This document shows, piece by piece, positions 52,340 through 62,891 of a stretch of DNA of 64,000 bases (position 1 is its first letter; every line of letters starts with the position of its first letter). Position numbers and translations under genes: made by a program. The DNA is from an uncultured Porphyromonadaceae bacterium (GTDB lineage: Bacteria; Bacteroidota; Bacteroidia; Bacteroidales; Muribaculaceae), in NCBI GenBank assembly GCA_947175645.1, contig CAMWNP010000009.1, positions 1-64,000 on the forward strand. Direction: 5' to 3'. The notes beneath the pieces are model-generated. The model was not told the DNA's origin and did not search any database. It saw only the letters and a program-made list of their open reading frames with translations.

Positions 52340-54340
52340 ATGGAATATTACGGTAACAGACTTTGCATCTCAATGCGCGACCTTGTAGATGGCGGGATTA
52401 TGTCCGAGCCTAACTACAAGCAGCTTGCCTCACGTGGCCGCTTTGATGTGGTCCGGAAGGGGCGCGGTCAGGGGTGCTATGCCTTGGTTGCTGTTGACAG
52501 TCTCCCCGATCGCTACAAAGAGAAGGTTGAAGAGGTATATCCCGGAGGATCACAGGCACGTCTTGAGGGATGGATTATCAGCAACTACGAGGTTGATCAG
52601 AAAGCTACCGCCTTCTTCTTCTCAAAAGAACAATGTGGTGTTGCACTACCGGCAGATAAAGCCAAAGAGTACATCACAAACGCCTCGGTACTGAACACCT
52701 GTATCAAGCTACATGACAGAGCCGCCACAGCTCAGAAACTCTTCGGAGGTAAATATGACTGGACTATGATGGCCGCTACCATTGAGACGCTCCGCAAGCG
52801 GTTCGGCCACACTCTCCCGGCTTCAACCCTTCGCTTCCGGAAGAAGGTGAATGACTACAAGACCAACGGGTACGCATGTCTGATCAGCGGGAAGTACGGC
52901 AATCAGTCGGCACGGAAGGTGGACTACAAGACCGAGCGACTTATCCTTGGTATCGCAGTACAACCTAACAAGCCTTGGAACACCAACGTCCTCGAATTAT
53001 ATAACTCCTTCGTAACCGGAGAGTATGATGTATTTGATCCGGATACCGGCGAACTATTCAATCCGGATGACTTCACTGACAAAAACGGAGAACCTATGGT
53101 TCTGAGCGAAGCTACTATATGCAACTACCTCAACAAGCCTAAAAACAGGGCACTCATTGACCATCGCCTAATGACTCCGACAACCTTTATACACGAGGTA
53201 ATGCCACACATGCACCGGCATCATGGAGAATTCTCCCTCTCGAAGGTGTCGTTTGATGACCGTGACCTTCCGCGCAAACTCAAGGACACAAGAATACGTC
53301 CGAAGGCATATTATGCTTACGATGTGACGAGCGGATGCTGTATAGGAGCAGCCTACAACCGAGCAAAGAACATCGATCTTGTGGTGGATATGTTCCGGGA
53401 TATGTTCCGGCTGCTTGACAGAAACGGTTGGGGATGCCCTGCCGAGGTCGAGGTTGAAAACCACCTGATGAGTCAATGGAAAGACTCCTTCCTCCGAGCC
53501 GGAGTTATGTTCCCCTTCGTGCGGTTCTGCGCTCCTATGAATTCACAGGAGAAACATGCAGAGCAGTTCAACGGAGCCAAAAAGCGTAGCATCGAACACC
53601 GAAACCACGTCGGTATCGGCAGGTTCTACGCCAAAAGCAGACAATACCGGACGGAAAGCAACAAGGTATTCGATGAGTTCAACAATACCTATGAGGATAA
53701 GGAATATTACACATGGGACGAACTGATCGCCGACGACCGCCGGGACATCTACGAATACAACCACGCATTGCATCCCAATCAGAAAAAGTATAAGGGTATG
53801 ACCAGATGGGACGTGCTTGTAGCCAATATCAACCCGACCCTTCAGCCTCTTGATAAGGCTACCATCGCACGATATGTCGGTGAGAAGGTCAGCACAACCA
53901 TCCGGCGCAATTCTTACTGCCGGGTCCTTCACAAGGATTGGTGGCTGAGCAAAACAGAGGTCATCGAGCTTCTCGCACCGAACGACTACAAGGTCGATGC
54001 CTACTATCTCACCGATGAAGAGGGTAACGTGACCGACATGTTCATCTACCAAGGAGATATGTATATCGACCGCCTTGAGGATATAGGAACCTACAACACG
54101 GCACGGGCCGAGCAGACAGAGGAAGATGAAAAGATCTTCGTGGAGCAGCAGAAAAAGATCAGTCATTTCAAAAAATATGTCGAAGACCGTGCAATCGGGC
54201 GCGTCGGTGTAATAGAACGCGACTCACGGCCTTCTGCAGTCGAGGTGGAAGAAGTGGCCGTCCCGGAGCCGGAAACGCGAGAAACGGAAGATTTCAGCTA
54301 TGGAACCGACTATGCCGCACAGGGTCTTGAGGCAGTTTAG
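52340..54340 (+). CDS. MuA-like DDE transposase
   Basis: Transposase of 666 residues, the size of MuA (663). The N-terminal part is a MuA-type DNA-binding domain (SMRDLVDGGIMSEPNYKQLASRGRFDVVRKGRGQGCY). The catalytic core shows Asp328 (YAYDVTSGCCIGAAYNR) and Glu404 (MNSQEKHAEQFNG). At the usual second Asp position the sequence reads VEVENHLM, that is Glu373. A MuA-like beta-barrel and a charged C-terminal tail that would contact MuB follow. It integrates and replicates the phage by transposition. Confidence 0.93.
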   Translation: MEYYGNRLCISMRDLVDGGIMSEPNYKQLASRGRFDVVRKGRGQGCYALVAVDSLPDRYKEKVEEVYPGGSQARLEGWIISNYEVDQKATAFFFSKEQCGVALPADKAKEYITNASVLNTCIKLHDRAATAQKLFGGKYDWTMMAATIETLRKRFGHTLPASTLRFRKKVNDYKTNGYACLISGKYGNQSARKVDYKTERLILGIAVQPNKPWNTNVLELYNSFVTGEYDVFDPDTGELFNPDDFTDKNGEPMVLSEATICNYLNKPKNRALIDHRLMTPTTFIHEVMPHMHRHHGEFSLSKVSFDDRDLPRKLKDTRIRPKAYYAYDVTSGCCIGAAYNRAKNIDLVVDMFRDMFRLLDRNGWGCPAEVEVENHLMSQWKDSFLRAGVMFPFVRFCAPMNSQEKHAEQFNGAKKRSIEHRNHVGIGRFYAKSRQYRTESNKVFDEFNNTYEDKEYYTWDELIADDRRDIYEYNHALHPNQKKYKGMTRWDVLVANINPTLQPLDKATIARYVGEKVSTTIRRNSYCRVLHKDWWLSKTEVIELLAPNDYKVDAYYLTDEEGNVTDMFIYQGDMYIDRLEDIGTYNTARAEQTEEDEKIFVEQQKKISHFKKYVEDRAIGRVGVIERDSRPSAVEVEEVAVPEPETRETEDFSYGTDYAAQGLEAV

Positions 54341-54365: not shown

Positions 54366-55238
54366 ATGATTACAACAGACATCAAAAACAAAATTCTCGC
54401 CGCTATAAAGGCGAACCGCGCCAACTATCCGAGTGACGCGAAGCATGCCGCCTCTCTGGGCATCACGACTTCGGTCTACAGTGCGGTCAAAAACGGTCAG
54501 ACCGACCGTGTTCTGAGCGATGCCAACTGGATAAGCATTGCCCGGAAACTCGGAGTCAGTCTCCGGGGAGAAATTGAATGGAAAGTAGCGAAGACTCCGA
54601 CCTTCCAGTTTATCACGGCACAGTTGGAGGCTTGCCAAGGGAGCGGCATTAGTGCTATCATGTGCGACCTCCCCAATATCGGGAAGACCTTTACAGCCCG
54701 GCACTATGTCAAGACCCATCCAAACGCCATCTACATCGATTGCTCACAGGTCAAGACAAAACTCAAGCTCGTCCGGAAGATAGCCGGTGAGTTCGGAGTA
54801 GACAGTAAGGGCCGCTATGCAGACGTGTACGAAGATCTCGTCTATTACTTACGCTCCATCGAGAACCCTCTTATCATTCTTGATGAAGCCGGCGACCTCC
54901 AATACGAAGCCTTCCTTGAGCTGAAAGCATTGTGGAACGCCACCGAGAGATGCTGCGCCTGGTATATGATGGGAGCAGACGGTCTCAAGGAGAAAATCAA
55001 CCGTTCAATCGAGTGCAAGAAGGTTGGCTACACCGAAATGCTCAGCCGATATGGTGACCGATACAGCAAGGTTACGCCGGACGATGGCAAGGAGCGTCAG
55101 AAATTCCTTCTCTCTCAAGCGCAGATTGTGGCTAAGCTCAATGCTCCGGAGGGAGCAGACCCCGGAGAGATTGCCCGGAAGAGTGGCGGTGGTCTCCGGC
55201 GAGTATATACAGAAATCGAAAAACTGAAAAGACTATGA
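54366..55238 (+). CDS. MuB-like AAA+ ATPase (target selection)
   Basis: A 290-residue ATPase directly downstream of the transposase. An N-terminal HTH-like region (YPSDAKHAASLGITTSVYSAVKNGQ) precedes the AAA domain with a Walker A of unusual form, CDLPNIGKTFTA (the first Gly is replaced), and Walker B PLIILDEAGDL. MuB binds target DNA and activates MuA. The stop overlaps the next start (ATGA). Confidence 0.9.
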   Translation: MITTDIKNKILAAIKANRANYPSDAKHAASLGITTSVYSAVKNGQTDRVLSDANWISIARKLGVSLRGEIEWKVAKTPTFQFITAQLEACQGSGISAIMCDLPNIGKTFTARHYVKTHPNAIYIDCSQVKTKLKLVRKIAGEFGVDSKGRYADVYEDLVYYLRSIENPLIILDEAGDLQYEAFLELKALWNATERCCAWYMMGADGLKEKINRSIECKKVGYTEMLSRYGDRYSKVTPDDGKERQKFLLSQAQIVAKLNAPEGADPGEIARKSGGGLRRVYTEIEKLKRL

Positions 55239-55738: not shown

Positions 55739-56365
55739 ATGGCCAAGCGAGCATATAGTCCTAAAGAGGTTCTTGCTAAGACCTACAAAACCTTGCCTTG
55801 GAGTGAGAAATGGAGCGGCCCATTCGGAGAAGTTCCAACTAACGAGACATGGTTTATCAGTGGTATATCAGCACAAGGCAAGAGCAGCTTCGTGATGCAG
55901 CTCGCCAAGGAACTTGCAAACTACGGTATGGTTCTTTACTGCTCATACGAAGAAGGCATAAGCCAATCATTTAAAAAGCGAATGGAGCTATTTAAGATGA
56001 ACGAGATACAAGGTCGGTTCAGAGTAATAACGGATGACTCTTTTGAAGAACTGATGAGCCGCCTTGCCAAACCCAAGAGTCCTCATTTCGTCATTATCGA
56101 TAGTTTTCAGGAAGCGGAAATGTCGTATGAGCAGTTCAAACAGATGAGAGCACGGTTTCCTGCAAAAAGTTTCATCTTTATCTCGCAAGAGCATAAGGGA
56201 CAGCCAATGGGAAAACCGGCAGCACGACTTAAGTATAAAGCCGGGATAAAGATAAGAGTTGTTGGATACAAGGCTTTTTGTCAAGGCCGCTTTACCGGAG
56301 ATCCCGGCAGCTATTATACAGTGTGGGAAGAAGGCATTTTAAGAACCTCAAACAACATCGGATAA
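55739..56365 (+). CDS. RecA/DnaB-like P-loop ATPase
   Basis: A 208-residue ATPase with Walker A GISAQGKSSF, Walker B HFVIIDSFQEAE and a KSFIFISQEHKG sensor-like strand, the layout of the RecA/RadA/DnaB-helicase core. The role in a phage that replicates by transposition is unclear; helicase loading or recombination is possible. It is directly followed by a zinc-ribbon gene. Confidence 0.8.
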   Translation: MAKRAYSPKEVLAKTYKTLPWSEKWSGPFGEVPTNETWFISGISAQGKSSFVMQLAKELANYGMVLYCSYEEGISQSFKKRMELFKMNEIQGRFRVITDDSFEELMSRLAKPKSPHFVIIDSFQEAEMSYEQFKQMRARFPAKSFIFISQEHKGQPMGKPAARLKYKAGIKIRVVGYKAFCQGRFTGDPGSYYTVWEEGILRTSNNIG

Positions 56366-57075: not shown

Positions 57076-57240
57076 ATGAGTCTTACCGTTACAGTCAAAA
57101 ATTATCTCACTTCTTATACCTCCGACATGGAGAATGATGATTATATCGACTTCATGCGAGAACTTGCAGAGTGGGCAACAAGTCAAGCTGACATCGCCGA
57201 ATACCGTGCGGAAAACCTCGATGAATTCAACGAAGAATAA
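57076..57240 (+). CDS. Small acidic phage protein
   Basis: A 54-residue acidic ORF (MSLTVTVKNYLTSYTSDMEND...), starting 1 bp after the previous stop and ending 25 bp before gam. Length and packing in the operon support it. No family recognised. Confidence 0.5.
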   Translation: MSLTVTVKNYLTSYTSDMENDDYIDFMRELAEWATSQADIAEYRAENLDEFNEE

Positions 57241-57265
57241 CAACCCCTATAACAACAATCCAACA

Positions 57266-57823
57266 ATGGCAAAAAGACAGAAAAAGACAGTCATCTCCGG
57301 CGTGAGCAAGGAAGCCGCCGAAGAAGCCTTTGCAACCTACGCCAAGGCAGACGCAGAACGTGCGAAAATCACAGCCGAGATTGAGCTGAAATGTGCACAG
57401 ATCCGAGAGAAACATCAAGACCGCCTGTCGCAACTCCAAGCAACACAGGACGAGGCTTTCGATACCCTTCAGGCATTCGCCACCGAGAATCAGCCGGAGC
57501 TCTTCAGTAAAAAGAAGAGTCTTGAGATGGTTCACGGCACCATCGGTTTCCGCACAGGCACCCCAAAACTCAAAACCCTCAAGGGTTTCACATGGGCCAG
57601 TGCACTACAACTTGTGAAAGAGTTTCTTCCCGGCTTTATCCGCTCCACCGAAGAGATCGCAAAGGACAGGCTCTTGTCGGAGCGAGACACAGAAGTCATC
57701 AAGCCCGGCGACCCACTCGGGCCAGGAGTCCCTCTCCGTGAGGTGATGTTCAAATGTGGCATTTCAGTCGTTCAGGACGAAACCTTCTTTGTTGAACCCA
57801 AAAAAGAGGAAGGAGCCGCATGA
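57266..57823 (+). CDS. Host-nuclease inhibitor Gam-like protein
   Basis: A 185-residue protein of the Mu Gam family, which binds linear DNA ends and protects them from host exonuclease; the ancestor is related to Ku. The coiled-coil (residues 20-65) and C-terminal TIGFRTGTPKLKTLKGFTWASALQLVKEF are typical. The start is ATG 57266, because upstream codons belong to the overlapping small ORF. Confidence 0.9.
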   Translation: MAKRQKKTVISGVSKEAAEEAFATYAKADAERAKITAEIELKCAQIREKHQDRLSQLQATQDEAFDTLQAFATENQPELFSKKKSLEMVHGTIGFRTGTPKLKTLKGFTWASALQLVKEFLPGFIRSTEEIAKDRLLSERDTEVIKPGDPLGPGVPLREVMFKCGISVVQDETFFVEPKKEEGAA

Positions 57824-58020: not shown

Positions 58021-58254
58021 ATGGGTAAGAGACCCGGACAGAGTTATCAGAAGCGAGTCGCAGAGATCAACAGGATATATGACCTGCATGCCAAACAAGG
58101 GATTCCCAACAGGGAAATATGGCGCAGGTACATATATCCTGCTTATGGTATCTGTGAGCGAACGTTCTATAACTTATTGAAAGCACCGACAAAGCCGGGT
58201 TTCACAACACCCAATCAGATGCCTAATCTTTTCGAAGACATCGATGGCGAATAA
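58021..58254 (+). CDS. Small HTH-like phage protein
   Basis: A 77-residue basic protein (GQSYQKRVAEINRIYDLHAKQGIPNREIWRRYIYPAYGICERTFY) with a possible helix-turn-helix at about 35-60. It may be a late regulator in the place of Mu Mor/C, but this is only from position. It overlaps the next gene by 11 bp. Confidence 0.6.
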   Translation: MGKRPGQSYQKRVAEINRIYDLHAKQGIPNREIWRRYIYPAYGICERTFYNLLKAPTKPGFTTPNQMPNLFEDIDGE

Positions 58255-58801
58255 TTACGACCAAATAATCAAGAACATTCTCCGGGACATTCAGGTGGAA
58301 ATGGCTGACGAGTTCGACAGGAACTTCGAGCGTCAGGCATTCTTCTCGGAGGCTTGGCAGAGACGCAAGAGTCCCACACGGCCCGGCGGTCATATCCTTG
58401 TTGACACAGGCGGTCTTCGCCGGAGCATCACAAGCCGGGCGACTCCGAACAGCATAATCTTCCGTTCAGATCATCCGGCAGCAGCCATTCATAACGAGGG
58501 TGGAGAAATCAAGGTAACAGCCAAAATGAAGAAGTTCTTTTGGTATAAATACTACAGCACCACCGGTTCGTTCGGGAGGCGGAAGGACGGCACAAAGCGA
58601 AAGGATAAACGAACCATTCAGCTATCGACAGAAGCCGAATTCTGGAAGTTTATGGCTCTGATGAAGGTCGGCTCCACGATCAAGATACCGCGCCGTCAGT
58701 TCCTTGGAAATGCTCCGGAGGTAGAAAAGACCGTCAGAGAGATCATCGAAGAGAATATCACAGAATTTTTCAATACAGATTTTGACATAATAGAAAGATG
58801 A
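58244..58801 (+). CDS. Phage virion morphogenesis protein (Mu GpG-like)
   Basis: A 185-residue protein of the virion morphogenesis/tail completion family: LVDTGGLRRSITSRA, AAIHNEGGEIKVT and IPRRQFLGNAPEVEKTV are the diagnostic motifs. It is needed for head or tail completion. It is one of two structural genes on the plus strand, while the portal and head genes are on the minus strand. Confidence 0.85.
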   Translation: MANNYDQIIKNILRDIQVEMADEFDRNFERQAFFSEAWQRRKSPTRPGGHILVDTGGLRRSITSRATPNSIIFRSDHPAAAIHNEGGEIKVTAKMKKFFWYKYYSTTGSFGRRKDGTKRKDKRTIQLSTEAEFWKFMALMKVGSTIKIPRRQFLGNAPEVEKTVREIIEENITEFFNTDFDIIER

Positions 58802-59400: not shown

Positions 59401-60255
59401 TTATGCAGCGTTGTCAGGCGGTAGTTCCGGCACTGTGAAGAGCATGATGTCCGTGTAACGGGCATTATAGTTCATTGTTGCCTTAAACTCCCTCCTCTGA
59501 CACCGGGCGAATGGGTCGCCAAGCGATGGATGGCGTCCCATCCACTCGCACAGTTCAACAATGCATGATTTCTCGGAGGTGAAATATATAAAATTATGAC
59601 CGGGCAAGACGGAAAGCACATCGAGGTAGTCAGCGAGTCGCCAATACATTTTGTAAGTTCCGACATCTGTGGACAGATATGGAGGATCAACAAGGAAGAC
59701 AACACCAGGAGTGTCTTTGAAACGTTCAAACAGCTCCCGGTAATCACAAGACTCTATCTCAAGTCCGGCGAGATAATCCGGGCATAGCTCATAATCAGCT
59801 TTACGCACATTGTTGTATAATGTCTCAGACCGCATGCCATTGATGGTGAGCTTATATTTCATCGAGAACATGAGAGAAGATGAAAGTGTGATAAAGTCGA
59901 GATATCCATTCTCGCGTTCCTCCGTCTCAAGCAGCTCGAAGATGCGGTCCCTCGCTTTGCCAGTGATAGGCTTATGCCGGGGAACTTGCTCCGAGATTTG
60001 CCGGATCTGAGATAGGAGCCTGTTCGTCCGGGGAATATTGCCGATGCGTTGTCTGTAATTGTCAAAATCATTGTATATGACCCTTGACTCCGGGTGGAAA
60101 TGCTTTGTGATATGAGAAAGCAAGCCGGAGCCTCCGAACAGGTCTACGAAGATAGTCCCGGCTGGATACTGCTTTATCACCTCGATAAAATGTTTAGCGA
60201 ACATGCGCTTTTGTCCTACGAAAGGAAGAGGTGCCGAAAGATAAAGTTTGCTCAT
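59401..60255 (-). CDS. DNA adenine N6-methyltransferase (D12 class)
   Basis: A 284-residue Dam/D12-type methyltransferase: SAM-binding FVGQKRMFAK and VDLFGGSGLLSH, catalytic VDPPYLSTD (DPPY), and NDFDNYRQRIGN. It probably methylates adenine in a short site, such as GATC, to protect phage DNA from restriction. Its start overlaps the TS-like gene by four bases, so both are expressed together on the minus strand. Confidence 0.9.
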   Translation of the reverse strand: MSKLYLSAPLPFVGQKRMFAKHFIEVIKQYPAGTIFVDLFGGSGLLSHITKHFHPESRVIYNDFDNYRQRIGNIPRTNRLLSQIRQISEQVPRHKPITGKARDRIFELLETEERENGYLDFITLSSSLMFSMKYKLTINGMRSETLYNNVRKADYELCPDYLAGLEIESCDYRELFERFKDTPGVVFLVDPPYLSTDVGTYKMYWRLADYLDVLSVLPGHNFIYFTSEKSCIVELCEWMGRHPSLGDPFARCQRREFKATMNYNARYTDIMLFTVPELPPDNAA

Positions 60256-60896
60256 ACGTTCAATTCAAATGTTACTGCATCCTCTCCGGCGAGAAGACGG
60301 TGGGTATTTTCGATATTATTATCATATATATGGACATTGCCCAGGAACAGTGTAATAGACTTGAGAGGGAAGTCAATGTGCCGGGCCATCAGGTAGAGGT
60401 GATATATATCTGCCGGCAGTCCAAGGTTAGCGTCGGAACTTCGCTGATAAGCAGATACAATCAGTTCGCCGTCTTCGATTTGGAACTGTACGAGCGACAG
60501 ACACGGAGCCTGATTGCTCTCCGCTTCGGTGGCTCCGAGAAACAGCACATAGTTCTTTGATGGGCGTCGTTCCTCATTGATCCGGGCCAGCAGAGGTGGC
60601 AGTTTCTCAAAATATGTTGGGTAAGAATTGACCAGGATAGAACCGCAATAATCCCACCAATGGATACCGGCTTCCCGGTACTTCTCCACTGACCGTTCAC
60701 CGCTCATGAAGAGCCGGAGTTCTGAACGGAGCTTCTTACGGGCCAGTCCGTGCCCCTCGAAAATTTCAAGCAGATCTGCCGGCGAAAGTGAGAGCTGCTC
60801 ATTGATCAGATATGTTATTTTGCCTTTCTTGTTGGTCTGCTGTTTTCCTTTTGCGAGAATCCGGGCAAGAATCTGGTGATATTTATTATGAGACAT
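60252..60896 (-). CDS. Thymidylate-synthase-like protein, candidate dCMP hydroxymethylase
   Basis: From ATG 60896 (214 aa) the sequence follows the thymidylate synthase fold: YHQILARILAKGKQ, RSELRLFMSGE, IHWWDYCG, catalytic Cys132 (APCLSLVQF), Arg152-Ser-Ser-Asp155 (AYQRSSDANLGLP), and HIY 189-191. Cys132, Arg152 and Asp155 keep the spacing of E. coli TS C146, R166 and D169. The residue matching N177, the pyrimidine-reading Asn, is Asp163 (LGLPADI), the change found in phage T4 dCMP hydroxymethylase. The PCH His is Leu, and the C-terminus is about 30 residues shorter than in TS. It may make a modified dCMP for phage DNA, or be an inactive relative. Confidence 0.75.
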   Translation of the reverse strand: MSHNKYHQILARILAKGKQQTNKKGKITYLINEQLSLSPADLLEIFEGHGLARKKLRSELRLFMSGERSVEKYREAGIHWWDYCGSILVNSYPTYFEKLPPLLARINEERRPSKNYVLFLGATEAESNQAPCLSLVQFQIEDGELIVSAYQRSSDANLGLPADIYHLYLMARHIDFPLKSITLFLGNVHIYDNNIENTHRLLAGEDAVTFELNV

Positions 60897-60965: not shown

Positions 60966-61208
60966 TCACACTGCACCGGAATTGCAGTCTCTTTGAAACC
61001 GCTTTATAAGCGAATAGACCTTGCGCTCAGAGATATGATAATTGGTGGCCAGACATGCCACCGCATACGTAACCTTGTCTCCAGTAGCAACCATTCTGTT
61101 GAAGTCAGCGAAAAGGTCGATATAGTCAGTATCCTCAAGCCGGATTCCGGACTTTCTTAATCTTTCAAGCAGTTCTCGGTTGAATTGCAGAATTTCAAAT
61201 ATTGTCAT
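60966..61208 (-). CDS. Small HTH-like phage protein
   Basis: An 80-residue protein from ATG 61208 (MTIFEILQFNRELLERLRKSG...). The C-terminal KVTYAVACLATNYHISERKVYSLIKRFQRDC looks like a helix-turn-helix. It lies between the TS-like gene and the structured RNA region; a regulatory role is inferred only from that. Confidence 0.65.
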   Translation of the reverse strand: MTIFEILQFNRELLERLRKSGIRLEDTDYIDLFADFNRMVATGDKVTYAVACLATNYHISERKVYSLIKRFQRDCNSGAV

Positions 61209-61236: not shown

Positions 61237-61361
61237 CGTCTCACTTATAAACACAAACACCACTGGGCGAGTAGAGGGCATTATGCCCCCGGCTCGCGCC
61301 CAGTGGTGTATCGTGTTAAAAGTAAGTGAGACGACTATTTAACAGGCCGGGGGCATTTTTC
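61237..61361 (+). ncRNA. Candidate structured RNA with nested stems and possible pseudoknot/terminator switch
   Basis: Outer stem CGTCTCACTT / AAGTGAGACG (61237-61246 with 61324-61333, perfect 10 bp). Inner stem of 13 perfect pairs, ACACCACTGGGCG / CGCCCAGTGGTGT (61257-61269 with 61297-61309). The apical part ATGCCCCCGGC (61283-61293) is the perfect complement of GCCGGGGGCAT (61346-61356), which is followed directly by TTTTT. So either a pseudoknot or a terminator that competes with the apical hairpin can form. There is no ORF inside, and the promoter lies upstream on the same strand. Function unknown. Confidence 0.6.
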
Positions 61362-61525: not shown

Positions 61526-61590
61526 AATAATGAGTGGTTGATTCCTAATGGGGGTGACTGAAGCCCCGCTGGACAATCGCTCATTCTTTT
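61526..61590 (+). ncRNA. Candidate short hairpin RNA or terminator
   Basis: The whole predicted 65-nt transcript folds: AATGAGTGGTTG pairs with CAATCGCTCATT (61529-61540 with 61574-61585), a GGGG / CCCC stem closes the interior, and CTTTTTTT follows. It could be a small RNA ending at its own terminator, or only a terminator; it also reaches into the 3' end of the MuF-like gene as antisense. Confidence 0.5.
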
Positions 61591-62891
61591 TTTAATACAT
61601 GATAGATAGTCTCACTACGGTTTTTATATACCTCCATTGTGATTATCCAAGAATCATCACCTTGTATAAGAGAATATTTATTATATCCTGAGACACCACG
61701 ATGCCGTTTAACATCAACATTCTTTCTGTCCTTTGGATTTGATAGGTCTTTCCCTTCTCCAAGGGGACTATGGCGCAAAAACACCATATCGTCGAGATGC
61801 ATCCTGATTGCTTCATACATCTCCGCCTGTTCAAGATCTCGGGCATGCCCTATTGCTCTGCCAAAAGTCTTCTTCGTCTGATAATAAGTGCCGGTCTGAA
61901 GCCTGGATGCTGTAACATTGTTCAGAACAGTTACTTCATTTTTCAGTTCTTTAACGTATTCCCATACTCGTTTTACGGTTTCATAACTCCTGCATGTCCT
62001 AAGGAACCTGCAAGCCTCGCACAGATGATTGTCCGGGATGAACTTGGCGAAGGATATCTTTCCCTTAGCGATATCGCAGTCGCGGCATCGGTGGATGGTA
62101 TAGGGATTATAGTCAGGCACGGTCTTCTGCTCAAGTCCGGGATTGAAACGGAATATACCCTTTGAATCCCTCTGCAGTGCTTCATCACCAAGTCGCATTG
62201 CCTCATCATGAGGAGTGACCGGATACTTTGACTTGCGTACCTGTACGACAGTACACCTGCAGTTCCACCCATTGGGAGGATAGAACTCTGCCCAAAAAGG
62301 ATCAGATGGTGATAGTGTTACTCCATCGAGAGCAGCATGTTCCGGACGCACTTTATCATCCTTCTGAGTTCTGTATTGAAGATTGTACCTGTCTCCGTCC
62401 TGCATGAATCCGTCCCATTTAGCAGCCATTTCAGCCGATGCAGACACGAAATTATATTCTGCCCGTAGGTAGTTGCTGTTATAGGTTTGATCGATACTTC
62501 GAACATCATTCAAAAAGCGTTCGAACGGTTTTCGTTCGCCATTCTCATCGATGAGTGAAGGGAAAGCCTCGTTAAGTTCATGGAAGGTCTTGATCCCGGA
62601 GAATATGAAATCAGAGCGGTGCAACCTTTTACGCATCGCATCTGACATTTCCACTTTCTCAAAAGAGGAATCAAGGACTGATGAATGACTCTCAATGAAT
62701 TCCCGGACTTGAGGCGTTGAGAGGATATCGATAGACAACTGTGCGCCTTCAGTCTTATACACAGCCTTCATCATACTGTCAAAGAGTACGGACAACTGCT
62801 TCCGGAGTTCTTCCTCTCGCTCCTTGCGACCGGCCATGAACACATCGGGTGCGTCCGAAAGCAGCCGGGCATAGCGTTCATGCAGCCCCAC
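61581..62891 (-). CDS. MuF-like phage head protein with possible C-terminal toxin-like domain
   Basis: A 436-residue minor head protein. The Mu F-type domain is marked by RPEHAALDGVTLSPSDPFW and YPPNGWNCRCTVVQV (about 185-215). A CxxC pair twice (CRDCDIAKG and CEACRFLRTC, about 265-297) suggests a zinc ribbon. The C-terminal ~105 residues (RLQTGTYYQTKKTFGRAIGHARDLEQ..., DDSWIITMEVYKNRSETIYHVLKK) resemble the phage-borne Barnase/EndoU/ColicinE5-type nuclease domains that are often fused to MuF proteins, an attribution from pattern only. It lies 14 bp downstream of the portal gene. Confidence 0.8.
   Translation of the reverse strand: MGLHERYARLLSDAPDVFMAGRKEREEELRKQLSVLFDSMMKAVYKTEGAQLSIDILSTPQVREFIESHSSVLDSSFEKVEMSDAMRKRLHRSDFIFSGIKTFHELNEAFPSLIDENGERKPFERFLNDVRSIDQTYNSNYLRAEYNFVSASAEMAAKWDGFMQDGDRYNLQYRTQKDDKVRPEHAALDGVTLSPSDPFWAEFYPPNGWNCRCTVVQVRKSKYPVTPHDEAMRLGDEALQRDSKGIFRFNPGLEQKTVPDYNPYTIHRCRDCDIAKGKISFAKFIPDNHLCEACRFLRTCRSYETVKRVWEYVKELKNEVTVLNNVTASRLQTGTYYQTKKTFGRAIGHARDLEQAEMYEAIRMHLDDMVFLRHSPLGEGKDLSNPKDRKNVDVKRHRGVSGYNKYSLIQGDDSWIITMEVYKNRSETIYHVLKKE

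Follow-up and report, generated by a model that had tools for sequence, protein, structure and literature searches.

Two kinds of phage DNA modification provide the background to the locus described here. T4-type pathways depend on the removal of dCTP and on phosphorylation of the modified nucleotide by a kinase; the com-mom module of Mu has its place at the right end of the phage genome, with Com upstream. Enzymes of the Hia5/Hin1523 kind are non-specific adenine methylases, to which a 2012 study by Drozdz and colleagues was reportedly devoted. Prophage-borne adenine methylases such as Hia5 and M.Btr192IV hit nearly all adenines (PMC4996451), and Mom and M.EcoGII are silent in lysogens (PMC12707154).

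Modification of cytosine at the nucleotide level is associated with enzymes of the thymidylate synthase (TS) family, in which the change of Asn177 to Asp is a published dUMP/dCMP switch (PMC8670742). For the dCMP hydroxymethylase of T4, one paper defines hydroxymethylation by a signature made up of an acidic residue at the third position ahead of the Cys, a Ser, and a Tyr two residues after that Ser; it records no product for the D145N variant, and an enzyme without the C-terminal tail of TS (PMC6400193). The 5-methylcytosine of Xp12 DNA has been confirmed by LC-MS (PMC7653180), Xp12 has been placed near AXL1 and DLP4 (PMC9206674), and its dCMP methylase has been named within the TS family (PMC5175136).

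A TS-like gene beside an adenine methylase gene is carried by hankyphage p00 (BK010646), where the pair (DAC76694.1 and DAC76695.1) is annotated as 'thymidylate synthase' and 'DNA methyltransferase N6' and is accompanied by an 80-aa ORF upstream. The original prediction for the present locus, that no such arrangement was known in Bacteroidales transposable phages, is contradicted by this record. The arrangement is already known by annotation, yet undescribed as far as searched: searches of open-licence literature on hankyphage and on Mu-like and Bacteroides phages yielded nothing on what the cassette does, and the word 'thymidylate' was absent from those hankyphage papers whose passages were searched for it.

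Results

The cassette consists of three genes on the minus strand, located downstream of a Mu F-like gene in the window (the whole stretch of 64,000 nucleotides that was analysed; Table 1). The coupling of the TS-like gene to the D12 methylase gene by ATGA, as originally proposed, is borne out by the overlap of their coordinates. The ORF of the HTH-like gene has a GTG start at 61244, with the first in-frame ATG at 61208 giving an 80-aa product of the same length as the p00 homologue; its HTH and Mor-family matches were weak and below the cut-off (Mor E 0.003), and it is possibly the regulator of the cassette. Counts of promoter-like sites (8 versus 4.4 expected) and terminator-like sites (3 versus 2.2 expected) were obtained, and the search for tandem repeats returned none; these results were left out of the interpretation.

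Table 1 Genes of the modification cassette and of the surrounding phage region in the window.
Feature	Position	Strand	Characteristics
Transposase-like protein	52340-54340	+	Likeness to p00
MuB-like AAA protein	54366-55238	+	Phage context
ATPase	55739-56365	+	Phage context
Mu Gam	57134-57823	+	Phage context
Tail S	58244-58801	+	Phage context
D12-class (Dam-like) N6-adenine DNA methyltransferase	59401..60255	-	284 aa; contains the DPPY and FGGSG motifs; its start and the stop of the TS-like gene overlap in ATGA
TS-like protein	60252..60896	-	214 aa; TS fold; dCMP-type (Asp163); Gln at Cys-3; Lys114-Asn115 for the Arg-Arg phosphate pair; without C-terminal tail
HTH-like gene	60966..61208	-	80 aa; PHROG 17790 (function unknown); upstream of the TS-like gene, at a distance of 69 bp
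Mu F-like protein	61581..62891	-	PF04233, E 1.6e-15; cassette lies downstream of it

Two features of the Mu com-mom module are absent from this locus, as the cassette is located beside Mu F and not at the right end, and the upstream gene is HTH-like and not Com. Pfam and PHROGs searches recognised no dNMP kinase, dCTPase or glycosyltransferase among the scanned proteins of the window phage and p00, a set that included a subset of the small ORFs and several proteins without any match; T4, in contrast, has a glucosyltransferase, a kinase and a dCTPase. If the phage has neither kinase nor dCTPase, phosphorylation of the modified nucleotide would fall to kinases of the host, and the substitution would be partial.

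In comparison with p00, the cassette proteins are more alike than those of the phage core. The two phages share the same three genes, with identities of 61% (small protein), 79% (TS-like protein) and 63% (D12 methylase). In p00, the cassette is at the right end of the phage with a 95 bp gap between the TS and D12 genes, whereas the window copy lies on the minus strand near Mu F and has the ATGA overlap. The transposase, MuB, portal and terminase proteins are 29-35% identical between the two phages; three early proteins are about 40% and three tail proteins 50-61% identical, so the contrast between cassette and core is not total. With its similarity exceeding that of the core, and its different sites in the two phages, the cassette is mobile.

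A tblastn search of a phage collection gave 23 records that encode the TS-like protein with 60-80% identity, 21 of them listed at 76-79%, including 19 under Bacteroides names. The first match outside the 75-79% group, MT835659 (L237), was discarded: it comes from an unverified contig and is an Asn-type TS of the ordinary kind. In bacterial genomes, the TS-like gene was found in 7 of 393 from the order samples (E to 1e-40, own genome included). In the phylum sample, 34 of 395 genomes gave a match at E to 1e-10: two (again including the own genome) were below 1e-100 and 32 had E values from 1e-15 to 1e-10, the range that ordinary TS would give, and the three of these 32 that were aligned were all Asn-type TS. 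One genome from another order of the same class (G206; L272:9669-10373) carried a TS-like gene with 71% identity, without a D12 gene in the 20-kb stretch and with no other protein there similar to those of the window phage.

Linkage was assessed across 161 loci, comprising the best 80 of 141 and the best 80 of 132 relatives from two collections, together with p00. Since the two collections overlap, these loci are not all independent, and they represent 127 distinct TS-like proteins, the set used for the residue counts below. A D12 homologue (phmmer E <1e-3, with one weak case, L039, at 18 bits) was the same-strand neighbour of the TS-like gene at 139 of the 161 loci, following it in 82 and preceding it in 57; among the 82 with the TS-like gene first, 47 have the 4-base overlap seen in the window. 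This flipping of gene order while the neighbours stay together argues for a joint function. The HTH-like gene was located upstream of the TS-like gene in 142/161 loci. No D12 homologue was called in the remaining 22, some of which lay on short contigs, and in several of 12 of these loci the TS-like gene was seemingly the last phage gene, judging by ORF lists with unannotated flanks. Seven further loci of 2.6-3.6 kb contained D12 in five cases and the HTH-like gene in two. For the TS-like gene, the median NG86 dN/dS (150 sampled pairs per gene; amino acid identity 85-98%, dS <1.5) was 0.047, and the D12 gene gave a median of 0.084. Both genes are thus under strong purifying selection, which speaks for working proteins.

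The D12 protein is assigned to its class by a profile match in addition to its motifs. Outside Bacteroidota, relatives with 34-35% identity over nearly the whole protein were found in Haemophilus phage SuMu and in five Moraxella (Mcat) phages, with weaker matches in Helicobacter and Haloarcula phage records. SuMu resembles the window phage also in being Mu-like, and its D12 relative directly follows Com, the place of mom in Mu; Com stands where the window cassette has its HTH-like gene. Among the genes with an annotated function in the stretches of SuMu and the Moraxella phages that were viewed, none was annotated as TS.

Both a profile match to PF00303 and the predicted structure place the TS-like protein in the thymidylate synthase superfamily, in agreement with the TS fold originally proposed, with pLDDT below 50 at residues 80-92 and 122-131. 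Its best PDB sequence matches were bacterial TS, and when the model was compared by Foldseek with models of viral proteins, TS and dCMP hydroxymethylases came up; the protein of p00 was not among the 50 matches listed. The host genome encodes its own full ThyA. Aligned with canonical ThyA, the TS-like protein stops about 35 residues early, and in the family the wall of the active site is shorter by about a dozen residues after the Tyr94-like motif.

At the same time, the catalytic set of the superfamily is complete, with Cys132 and with Glu59, Arg152, Asp155, His189 and Tyr191 as equivalents of Glu58, Arg166, Asp169, His207 and Tyr209. These residues, along with Ser153 and Asp163, are invariant in 127/127 distinct sequences, and the claim that Cys132, Arg152, Asp155 and Tyr191 are kept therefore holds across the family. 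Lys114, Asn115, Gln129 and Leu133 are equally invariant, and the motifs around Gln129/Cys132, Asp163 and Lys114-Asn115 are present in all seven further loci. Asp163 aligns with Asn177 of E. coli TS and with Asp179 of T4 dCMP hydroxymethylase, so the original reading of an Asp in place of the Asn of TS, as in the T4 enzyme, is upheld, and conservation of this Asp, on which that reading depended, is complete. Judged from the sequence, Asp163 points to a cytosine substrate.

The likeness to T4 gp42 comprises the TS fold, the catalytic Cys and Glu, the Asp at the base-selecting place and the lack of a C-terminal tail. It does not extend to Asp145 and Arg123/Arg124, which are replaced in the TS-like protein by Gln and by Lys/Asn, respectively. 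The original reading of cytosine specificity is supported by the invariant Asp163 and the published switch; the resemblance to the T4 enzyme ends with the features just listed. In the phosphate pair, through which the partner subunit holds the 5'-phosphate, the first residue was Arg in all 22 comparators outside the family when compared by eye; the second varied, being mostly Arg and also Gln, His or Gly. Substitution by Lys114/Asn115 may weaken phosphate binding, shift the choice of sugar, or signal a substrate other than a free mononucleotide. An invariant NSYPTY motif was set against Ser94/Tyr96 (S-x-Y) of T4, in a stretch where alignment and model are uncertain.

To characterise the likely chemistry, we compared the residue three positions before the Cys (Cys-3) in 30 TS-type proteins, eight of them members of the TS-like family. 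It was an acid (Asp or Glu) in 7/7 hydroxymethylase-type proteins (T4, CC31, Aes012, a Microbacterium phage, PEi20, LuckyBarnes and SPO1), a set in which activity is documented for T4 and SPO1 and the others are assigned by annotation or likeness. Leu occupied the position in 8/8 canonical TS and in the TS-like proteins of Vibrio phage SD25 (Asp-type) and Aeromonas G2. Asn was found in all five Asp-type proteins of DLP4, AXL1, PaMx28, Achromobacter 83-24 and RDJL Phi 2, which count as one group and not as independent cases, since they were picked as DLP4 homologues after its residues had been seen. All eight family members had Gln, and Gln129 was retained in 127/127 distinct sequences. Membership in the T4-type hydroxymethylases was rejected on this absence of the Cys-3 acid, and ordinary ThyA was rejected on Asp163 for Asn177, Gln129 for Leu143 and the absent tail.

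An Asp base selector combined with a non-acidic Cys-3, which we propose here as a candidate feature of Xp12-type dCMP methylases and which has no published definition, is common to the TS-like family and the relatives of Xp12, with DLP4, AXL1 and PaMx28 standing in for Xp12 itself. These three, and the more distant proteins of Achromobacter 83-24 and RDJL Phi 2, also share with the family an amide at Cys-3 and the RSSD motif; they differ in having Asn instead of Gln, in their greater length (313 aa in DLP4) and in keeping the first Arg of the phosphate pair. Taken together with the 5-methylcytosine and dCMP methylase of Xp12 and its kinship with AXL1 and DLP4, the pattern of Asp plus amide, compared by analogy, suggests dCMP methylation for the TS-like family. 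Another member of the superfamily, the CMP hydroxymethylase MilA, resembles the family in having Lys for Arg126, and differs in having Ala for the Ser that the family keeps (PMC5175136).

Two observations concern other phages in this comparison. Genes for the Asp-type proteins with Asn at Cys-3 (L282:5767-6708, L286:201-1142, L283:207-1103, L284:66-926 and L285:186-1076) adjoin genes annotated as pyrophosphohydrolase and/or dCMP deaminase, and such proteins may define a dCMP-methylase class. Microbacterium phage Nebulous (L275, 2986-6705) encodes a T4-like protein, with an Asp selector and Asp at Cys-3, whose sole annotation is thymidylate synthase; genes for a glycosyltransferase, an AAA-ATPase and MazG follow downstream, and the cluster looks like an unlabelled hydroxymethylcytosine pathway.

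Phylogeny did not separate these relationships. In a first tree of 23 proteins, the TS-like family grouped with TS and apart from the hydroxymethylases (support 98/95), on a very long stem of 3.8 changes per column. Support was only 87/77 in a second tree of 28 rows, from which the long-branch PEi20 gp42 and LuckyBarnes TS had been removed and to which seven rows had been added. AU tests of three placements rejected none of them (with TS, p = 0.37; with the Xp12-like group, p = 0.30; with the hydroxymethylases, p = 0.40).

Discussion

Bacteroidales transposable prophages, and some others, appear to share a cassette made up of an HTH-like gene, a putative cytosine-type enzyme of the TS fold and a Dam-like adenine methylase, the cytosine-side enzyme of which looks unlike the known phage hydroxymethylases. 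The cassette probably serves to mark DNA building blocks and DNA chemically. Our preferred, though tentative, explanation is a mobile DNA-modification (anti-restriction) cassette that pairs an m6A methylase with a TS-like enzyme whose product would be 5-methyl-dCMP or a closely similar nucleotide. Cys132 would attack C6 of the cytosine nucleotide, Asp163 would serve both to recognise the base and to protonate its N3, and the one-carbon unit would come from methylene-tetrahydrofolate; the product would most likely be 5-methyl-dCMP (Xp12-type) and not 5-hydroxymethyl-dCMP (T4-type). We infer, with the original prediction, that the phage may modify cytosine as well as adenine. The modified nucleotide may enter phage DNA through the host polymerase during replicative transposition, resulting in partial substitution, the D12 enzyme would add m6A, and both marks could blunt restriction of the packaged genome, like Mom in Mu. 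Against the preferred explanation it can be held that no dNMP kinase, dCTPase or glycosyltransferase was recognised among the scanned proteins, that Lys114/Asn115 replace the phosphate pair, that Gln is not Asn and the five Asn-bearing proteins form a single group, that SD25 combines an Asp-type TS with Leu at Cys-3, that the window cassette lies away from the phage right end, that no D12 was seen at 22/161 loci (some on short contigs) or near the TS-like gene in G206, and that the HTH-like gene turned up in just two of the seven further short loci.

An enzyme of the T4 type, making 5-hydroxymethyl-dCMP and leading to 5hmC in phage DNA, seems unlikely. It would share with T4 the Asp selector and the missing tail, and a water molecule might still be held by Gln at Cys-3, a polar residue. 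However, an acid takes that place in every hydroxymethylase-type comparator and in none of the 127 family sequences, the D145N variant of T4 yielded no product (PMC6400193), and neither a glycosyltransferase nor a kinase was recognised among the proteins scanned.

Rather unlikely, too, is a product not destined for DNA, with the enzyme acting on CMP or dCMP in the manner of MilA and altering the nucleotide pool or disarming a nucleotide-based host defence, and being merely co-inherited with the methylase. Lys114 takes the place of Lys133' of MilA, a residue that contributes to its ribose preference (PMC5175136), no nucleotide-to-DNA machinery was recognised, and loci without D12 exist; Ser153, however, is the deoxyribose-type serine lost in MilA, and the linkage to a DNA methylase is tight in both gene orders.

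The replacement of the Arg pair by Lys114/Asn115, which may mean that the enzyme acts on something other than a free dNMP, is the ground for a more doubtful proposal, namely a folate-dependent, SAM-free TS-fold enzyme that modifies cytosine post-replicatively in DNA or RNA beside the adenine methylase, in a transposable phage with no polymerase or nucleotide-pool enzyme recognised among its scanned proteins. The shortened active-site wall and absent C-terminal tail are in line with it, and the partner enzyme acts on DNA, which the host polymerase presumably makes; the model, however, is least certain just there (at the two stretches of low pLDDT), and we know of no TS-fold enzyme that acts on a polymer.

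An ordinary thymidylate synthase that boosts dTMP is highly improbable despite the p00 annotation, the PF00303 match and the bacterial TS among the best PDB matches, given the changed equivalents of Asn177, His147, Leu143 and Trp83, the missing tail and the full ThyA of the host. A protein that keeps the TS fold but has lost catalysis, and serves in binding or regulation, would account for the several altered substrate and cofactor residues, and is just as hard to reconcile with the invariance of the active-site Cys, Glu, Arg, Asp, His and Tyr.

If the cassette is indeed of the DNA-modifying, cytosine-methylating kind that we prefer, its TS-like genes would represent a third active-site type among cytosine-acting TS enzymes, open to test on cultured phages, and the label 'thymidylate synthase' on such genes should be read with caution. 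To our knowledge, the phages known so far to contain modified cytosine are mainly lytic ones that bring their own replication machinery; should the cassette function as proposed, such bases could also occur in temperate phages, which replicate within the chromosome of the host.
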